Below are positions 140 to 6,530 of a stretch of DNA of 25,619 bases, one piece after another (positions within the stretch are counted from its first letter, which is position 1; every line of letters begins with the position of its first letter). Below the pieces are notes generated by a model, which worked only from the letters and a program-made list of their open reading frames with translations, was not told the DNA's origin and did no database searches. The position numbers were made by a program, and so were the translations under genes. The DNA lies in IMG/VR virus record IMGVR_UViG_3300034418_003828, positions 1 through 25,619 of that record; one strand, given 5' to 3'. The DNA comes from a virus.

Positions 140-316
140 ATGGCACAAAAATTATACACAATAGAAGAATACTTAGAATCTCTTAAAACACCAAAAGGTG
201 GATATACCAGAGAAACATTACTAACATTGGGTGTTTCATGGCCTCCTAAGAAAGGTTGGAAAAGAGATATCATCAAGGCAGTTAAACAGAACCCTAATTA
301 TATAATCAACACATAA
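140..316 (+). CDS. Small 58-aa phage protein with GGYTR...WPPKKGW motif, function unknown
   Basis: The ORF runs from ATG 140 to TAA 314-316. It begins MAQKLYTIEEYL and has a conserved-looking core: GGYTRETLLTLGVSWPP followed by KKGWKR, then a short basic C-terminus. The pattern of Gly, Trp and Pro resembles small proteins I associate with marine phages, but no function can be given. There is no clear ribosome binding site; a TATAAATA octamer 25 nt upstream would give an approximately 19-nt leader. An ATG at 126 is in another frame and stops after 12 codons. The gene sits between a terminator and the structured non-coding region, and could be cotranscribed with it. Confidence 0.6.
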   Translation: MAQKLYTIEEYLESLKTPKGGYTRETLLTLGVSWPPKKGWKRDIIKAVKQNPNYIINT

Positions 317-740
317 GGTTAGCAGGCCAGATTATAATACTGCTGTGGAAAAAGATATAGGAATATATCACACGCAACATACTGAGACACCCTCCTTGGA
401 TAGTAGAAATCCAGCCTGAAAGATGGAGGTAGGGGCAGAGACTAGAGCACAACACATTTAGTCAAGGATTGGTATAGTGTAAATGTTGATACACGCAAAC
501 ACTGAGCATAAAAATTTGCACAAGTTGGAACGCAGTGCATTACTGTAGAAATACAGGGCCTTTGCAGGTGAGGAGTGAGAAAGAGATCCTTTGCTAACAG
601 TGAAAAAATACCTGCTTCCTTATATGGCTGTGGCGTTACTCACAGAAAGAGGAGGGAACCTGCAATAGGTTCCTTCTGACTGCAACATCATCTACAGAAA
701 GTTCTCAATTATTACTTCTACATGTTGTTGTCTGAATAGA
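317..740 (+). ncRNA. Putative large structured non-coding RNA
   Basis: This stretch holds no credible ORF but many stable hairpins: GATATA/TATATC closed by a GGAA tetraloop (354-369); CCTCC/GGAGG (391-395/425-429) enclosing GGAT..ATCC with an AGTA/GAA internal motif typical of E-loops; CTGTA-GAAA-TACAG (543-556), a GNRA hairpin; CTGTG/CACAG (628-645); a 10-bp stem at 651-677 around GGAACC/GGTTCC; and the long-range GCAACAT/ATGTTGT (682-688/722-728). GCAGGT (564-569) can pair with ACCTGC (610-615). An approximately 16-nt motif, ACACGCAA..CTGAG, occurs twice (370-386, 491-506). Size and phage context recall giant phage RNAs such as GOLLD or ROOL, but I cannot assign a family. The ends are uncertain. 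The rest of the gap to 876 has a perfect AAGTCC/GGACTT hairpin (811-826). Confidence 0.5.
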
Positions 741-876
741 AAAAAACAAATAAATTAGCATCAAATGAAATGTCTGGAATGAAATGAAAGACATTGAAAG
801 TAGATGCGTTAAGTCCTTTAGGACTTGTTACTTGAGTCTAAGTGATAGCAAATTAATGGGAGAATTGTGGGTTAAT

Positions 877-6501: not shown

Positions 6502-6530
6502 ATTATACATAGTTTATTTATACAAGTCAA
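6502..6530 (-). promoter_or_regulatory. Sigma70-type promoter with embedded TATAAATA octamer
   Basis: On the - strand TTGACT (6530-6525), 17 bp, TATAAT (6507-6502). The 17-bp spacer contains TATAAATA (6522-6515), the late-type octamer. The inverted operon might therefore be transcribed early from the sigma70 site (start about 6495) and late from the octamer (start about 6509). Confidence 0.65.

Follow-up and report, generated by a model that had tools for sequence, protein, structure and literature searches.

The segment at positions ~306-827 of the window (by which we mean the whole 25.6-kb virus contig that was analysed) probably encodes a noncoding phage RNA of a new class that is large and pseudoknotted, acts in trans and carries two sites for one partner. 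That the + strand encodes a structured noncoding RNA here is indicated by covariation beyond phylogeny among its homologues, and judged from sequence comparisons the RNA is a new class, large and pseudoknotted. The substitution patterns show that the predicted fold is conserved across homologues, with a 5' domain closed by a pseudoknot to a loop and a 3' core that has more pseudoknots.

A first-pass annotation of the same DNA had noticed a gene-less stretch behind a 58-aa ORF and proposed a giant structured phage RNA, possibly of a new class. The stretch is indeed devoid of ORFs of 50 aa or more on either strand between the end of the 58-aa ORF at 316 and the next ORF start at 891, and the reading-frame check proposed in that annotation revealed no conserved frame across the RNA (longest stop-free run 47.8 codons, versus 52.4 in shuffles). 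The GNRA hairpins that it listed are present, with GGAA (360-363) capping 354-359/364-369 and GAAA (548-551) capping 543-547/552-556, and the stem at 651-677 (-16 kcal/mol) was matched by none of 200 shuffles. On the other hand, its more general argument from a fold of many hairpins is weak by itself, because the minimum free energy of the whole region barely beats that of shuffled sequences (z -1.35 on the + strand, -1.02 on the - strand), and the case for an RNA thus rests on the homologues. The proposed extent of 317-740 does lie within the RNA but proved too narrow, since a covarying strand begins at 306 and 3' hairpins continue to ~827; the label giant is likewise generous for an RNA with a core of ~400 nt, or ~520 nt including the 3' hairpins.

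Homologues were collected starting from terminase relatives of the window, and then with sequence patterns. One of the relatives is a contig (L007) with a terminase 59% identical to that of the window, in which a matching gene-less region aligns with the RNA over the greater part of its length (nhmmer 71.9 bits, E 2e-22). A 16-base pattern from the 5' end of the L007 RNA retrieved at least 120 stretches, a second pattern, from a 3' hairpin, gave matches whose listed number is a lower bound, and a third, window-type pattern gave 45 stretches, ~37 of them real. By profile search, at least ~198 RNA loci were found in IMG/VR contigs, from uncultivated aquatic viruses. Among the first 170 profile hits 106 cover the model from end to end, and the remaining hits comprise the 3' core alone (e.g. 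L181) or are truncated by contig ends. Another relative, L005, has a homologous 5' domain (E 1.6e-10) and gives no match with the 3' model. At L007:1160-1310, within the gene-less stretch that precedes the RNA in that contig, lies a different long inverted repeat (TGTAGCAGTTGAGAAC ... GTTCTCAACTGCTACA). Two near-identical T4-like stretches, L181 and L182, reside on contigs of 335 and 153 kb in one MAG labelled Neomarinimicrobiota, and each holds one copy of the RNA consisting of the 3' core only; their T4-like gene names were read from the sequence, and they are likely large-phage contigs in a bacterial bin.

Covariation was assessed in 90 diverse copies (less than ~93% identical) by a background-corrected G-test whose null came from alignments re-simulated along the tree, i.e. 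an in-house re-implementation of the R-scape idea and not R-scape itself. Eighteen column pairs were obtained at E<0.05, 16 of which are Watson-Crick pairs and two of which are same-base pairs between direct repeats, so that the covariation asked for in the first-pass annotation is present. In a separate count over 24 sequences of the 3' core, 95.6% of the pairs were of standard type, a value reached by 0 of 500 shuffles, and ten pairs exhibited changes on both sides as compared to 5.3 in shuffles. In the same 24 sequences there were 36 double-change cells (8.6 when shuffled), and the covariation score was 0.303, versus at most 0.058 for slid structures.

Table 1. Coordinates of the predicted RNA, its structural elements and the preceding ORF in the window.
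Feature	Position	Strand	Basis and remarks
58-aa ORF, putative protein	140..316	+	last codons overlap 5' strand of RNA
Whole RNA	306..827	+	inferred extent, from nhmmer, covariation and tail structure in homologues; ends approximate
5' domain	~306-495	+	as whole RNA
3' core	~497-703	+	as whole RNA
3' hairpins	to ~827	+	as whole RNA
Pseudoknot strand TCAACA	306..311	+	pairs with loop 484-489 (TGTTGA)
P1, AGCAG 321-325 / CTGCT 340-344	321..344	+	324-341 E 0.033, 100% paired
P2, GTG 345-347 / CAC 371-373 plus hairpin 354-359/364-369, GGAA loop 360-363	345..373	+	covariation, fold
P3, stem 379-388 / 466-475, variable apical part	379..475	+	380-474, 381-473, 382-472, 387-467 E~0
P4, hairpin GTGTA/TACAC, loop pseudoknotted with 306-311	477..494	+	478-493 E~0, 479-492 E 0.033
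P5, long-range helix CACTG-AGC 500-507 / GCT(aa)CAGTG 593-602	500..602	+	covariation; window register by inspection
P7, hairpin of variable length, window loop GAAA 548-551	543..556	+	columns 221-266 E~0; fold
P8, pseudoknot helix CTTT 560-563 / AAAG 580-583	560..583	+	both-side changes in 3/3 modelled pairs; window register by inspection
P9, GCAGGT 564-569 / ACCTGC 610-615	564..615	+	97% paired; U-A to C-G and G-C changes
P10, AGGA 571-574 / TCCT 587-590	571..590	+	both-side changes in 3/4 pairs; window register by inspection
Direct repeat A, ACAGAAAG	642..649	+	covaries by identity with repeat B
P12, conserved hairpin, end ...GGTTCCTTCT, then GAC	651..677	+	pair count, fold
Direct repeat B, ACAGAAAG	694..701	+	covaries by identity with repeat A
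3' tail hairpin 1	769..795	+	fold z -3.6; counterpart in homologue tails
3' tail hairpin 2, possible RNA end	811..826	+	fold z -3.3; counterpart in homologue tails

The strongest Watson-Crick pair of the alignment is 306-489, with the highest covariation score (130, E~0), and it belongs to the helix that ties the first strand of the RNA to the loop of P4; this helix has 98% standard pairs, and more than one Watson-Crick type occurs at five of its six pairs. The hairpin of P2 contributes four covarying pairs at E~0. An E-loop-like AGTA/GAA segment pointed out in the first-pass annotation falls within a hairpin near 394-410; this part of the RNA is variable and missing from many homologues. In the 3' core, P5 (alignment columns 178-181 with 304-307; two pairs at E~0 and a third at E 0.1) crosses P9 as a predicted second pseudoknot, and P8 crosses P10 as a third, giving at least three in the RNA. 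Downstream of the core many copies have a further pair of hairpins, which correspond to the two tail hairpins of the window.

The two direct repeats, 7-8 nt long, flank P12, the last conserved hairpin, and read ACAGAAAG in the window and ACATGAA in most copies. Columns 363-427 (GG/AA/CC) and 365-429 (AA/TT/GG) covary by identity at E~0, and columns 359-423 (AA/GG/TT) and 362-426 (TT/GG/AA) exhibit a like pattern that does not reach E<0.05 on its own. The alignment thereby shows repeats A and B changing together, to identical sequence. Fourteen motif classes were counted, and the window-type subfamily adds others. Neither the RNA nor its tail nor the upstream gene contains an exact complement of the repeats. 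The tail was considered as a pairing partner and rejected: duplex energies were slightly better than with tails taken from other phages (p 0.0003), yet at scattered positions. The simplest reading of the repeats would be one partner bound at two sites, although their identity could instead come from gene conversion, i.e. copying between the repeats, or could reflect a role within the folded RNA. In most motif classes the reverse complement of the repeat includes NNNATG, which would look like the region of a start codon and may be a coincidence of the conserved CAT core.

Rfam 15 includes models of GOLLD, ROOL, HEARO, IMES, group I introns and RNase P, the families against which the first-pass annotation had suggested a comparison, and neither the window nor eight homologue loci gave a match at gathering score. 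The RNA is likewise unmatched by the models of the HEARO/IscB omega RNA and of group II introns, and hits at permissive E-values were weak, sub-threshold and taken as chance. When the RNA was compared by blastn with 50,697 named phage records no relative was found, only short weak matches. A covariance model of the RNA (R1) gave nothing convincing in the jumbo relatives PA5oct, Phosso and Vibrio 2.275.O, in Melnitz, S-SRM01 and phiN3, or in the small relatives DSL-LC06 and HTVC026P (best E among all tested phages 0.136), and no description of the RNA was found in the openly licensed literature searched. Together with the covariation, the lack of an Rfam 15 match bears out the suggestion of a large structured phage RNA that may be a new class.

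Few large structured phage RNAs are known to us, and the closest, GOLLD and ROOL, are to our knowledge without known function. Both form homo-oligomeric cages, and the present RNA might similarly self-assemble into a cage or particle with no obligatory protein, a reading that we consider unlikely. Whereas GOLLD is located near tRNA genes, ARAGORN detected no tRNA gene in the window; tmRNA, which combines a tRNA-like domain with a tag reading frame, was found there neither by ARAGORN nor by Rfam. GOLLD is a pseudoknotted RNA of several hundred nt from phages and prophages, with a conserved 3' region and a 5' region that is less conserved or absent (PMC12286853), and the RNA described here resembles it in being phage-borne, of that size and rich in pseudoknots, with a conserved 3' core and a 5' domain that is less so or absent. 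With ROOL it shares the status of a pseudoknotted phage RNA of several hundred nt (PMC12286853). In contrast, its sequence and structure match neither family, no intermolecular contact can be inferred, and it differs from GOLLD in being shorter and in the direct repeats that covary by identity around the last conserved hairpin, and from ROOL in occurring in other phages and contexts, with no tRNA genes near it in the window.

The RNA occurs in two unrelated lineages, one of large T4-like phages with kinship to jumbo phages, the other of small window-like phages of ~30 kb. A T4-type Gp23 capsid protein is encoded in 9 of 20 sampled contigs, and that of the L098 contig is 67-70% identical to Gp23 of the jumbo phages PA5oct, Phosso and Vibrio 2.275.O. 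In the small phages, the terminase is of the same family as that of the window. In the RNA tree the small-phage copies L184 and L215 are nested inside the large-phage clade, which shows that the RNA was transferred between the lineages. No family-A DNA polymerase was found in 12 RNA-bearing small-phage contigs (the window included), most of them perhaps incomplete, nor in the relatives L010, L012, DSL-LC06 and HTVC026P. Octamers TATAAATA, the T4-type late-promoter sequence, are found just upstream of gene starts at 108, 877 and 1168 on the + strand and at 6515 on the - strand of the window. As an argument that the small phages need a T4-like helper these octamers were set aside, the four sites (1.4 expected) being reached by 7 of 100 shuffles; taken with the sharing of the RNA with T4-like phages, they hint at such a dependence.

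The gene most often next to the RNA encodes a SegE-type GIY-YIG homing endonuclease (PF19835, E 7e-34), which is directly upstream in most copies and in most large phages holds the position of the window's 58-aa ORF. In the large-phage copies it is mostly on the same strand, and the first strand of the RNA often overlaps its last codons. In L176, L184 and L215 it is instead directly downstream, suggesting that the adjacency arose in more than one arrangement. TnpB with its overlapping 3' RNA and IscB with its HEARO/omega RNA are analogues in which a structured RNA lies beside or overlaps the end of an endonuclease gene, and by analogy the RNA could guide, or form the scaffold for, a nuclease that depends on it; the adjacent SegE-type protein would then bind it, and the repeats would specify the target. 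We regard this as quite improbable, notwithstanding the recurrent adjacency. There is no constant tie to one nuclease gene, in that 10 of 13 RNA-bearing small-phage contigs, the window among them, have no SegE gene, although these may be fragments, and SegE relatives are found in many phages that lack the RNA, among them Melnitz (74% identity) and cyanophages. Moreover, the RNA differs from the omega RNA and the TnpB reRNA in the type of its neighbour, a GIY-YIG protein that is often missing, in having no Rfam match and in showing no variable guide, the 7-8 nt repeats being common to many phages and unlike a guide.

A compact pseudoknotted core next to a homing-endonuclease gene might also suggest a self-splicing or self-cleaving ribozyme, e.g. 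a diverged mobile intron. This is very unlikely, since group I and group II intron models gave no match, the flanking ORFs are complete and vary between phages, leaving no shared interrupted exon, and an intron guide sequence would need the internal complement that the repeats lack. A role as cis-acting leader or riboswitch for the gene downstream would fit the 99 of 133 loci whose next ORF has the same orientation, but it is opposite in the other 34, the downstream genes are of many unrelated families and the RNA has 3' hairpins of its own, which makes this reading highly improbable. Packaging genes near the RNA in the window could speak for a DNA element that folds in single-stranded form, such as an origin or a site of packaging or recombination, an idea with barely any credibility given that copies are at different genomic places and that 583 G-U cells against 101 A-C cells over the whole structure identify the + strand as the RNA.

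We thus favour a trans-acting RNA with two sites for one partner. Action in trans, as a free molecule, is suggested by neighbours that vary by phage, by the many next genes on the opposite strand and by the paired hairpins in which the copies end. Repeats A and B would then be two binding sites for the same protein or other nucleic acid, with a specificity that may drift between phages, and the compact fold would place one site on each side of the hairpin so that both could be engaged together. During infection, such an RNA may be a scaffold for its partner, or a sponge or decoy. Against this reading, the frequent adjacency to SegE genes could mean that the RNA does not work alone but together with that nuclease, or that the nuclease moves it. 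In a far bolder version, a partner would recognise two co-evolving segments displayed by a single large RNA, possibly with the neighbouring GIY-YIG nuclease as effector; the system would then be an RNA-directed nuclease or decoy unlike CRISPR, TnpB and IscB, and this we hold to be quite doubtful.

The RNA is common in aquatic viromes, in unrelated lineages with small as well as large genomes, and the covariation of its repeats by identity suggests that it interacts with a partner, which is directly testable. If confirmed, it would provide phage biology with an additional RNA class and a target for structural work.
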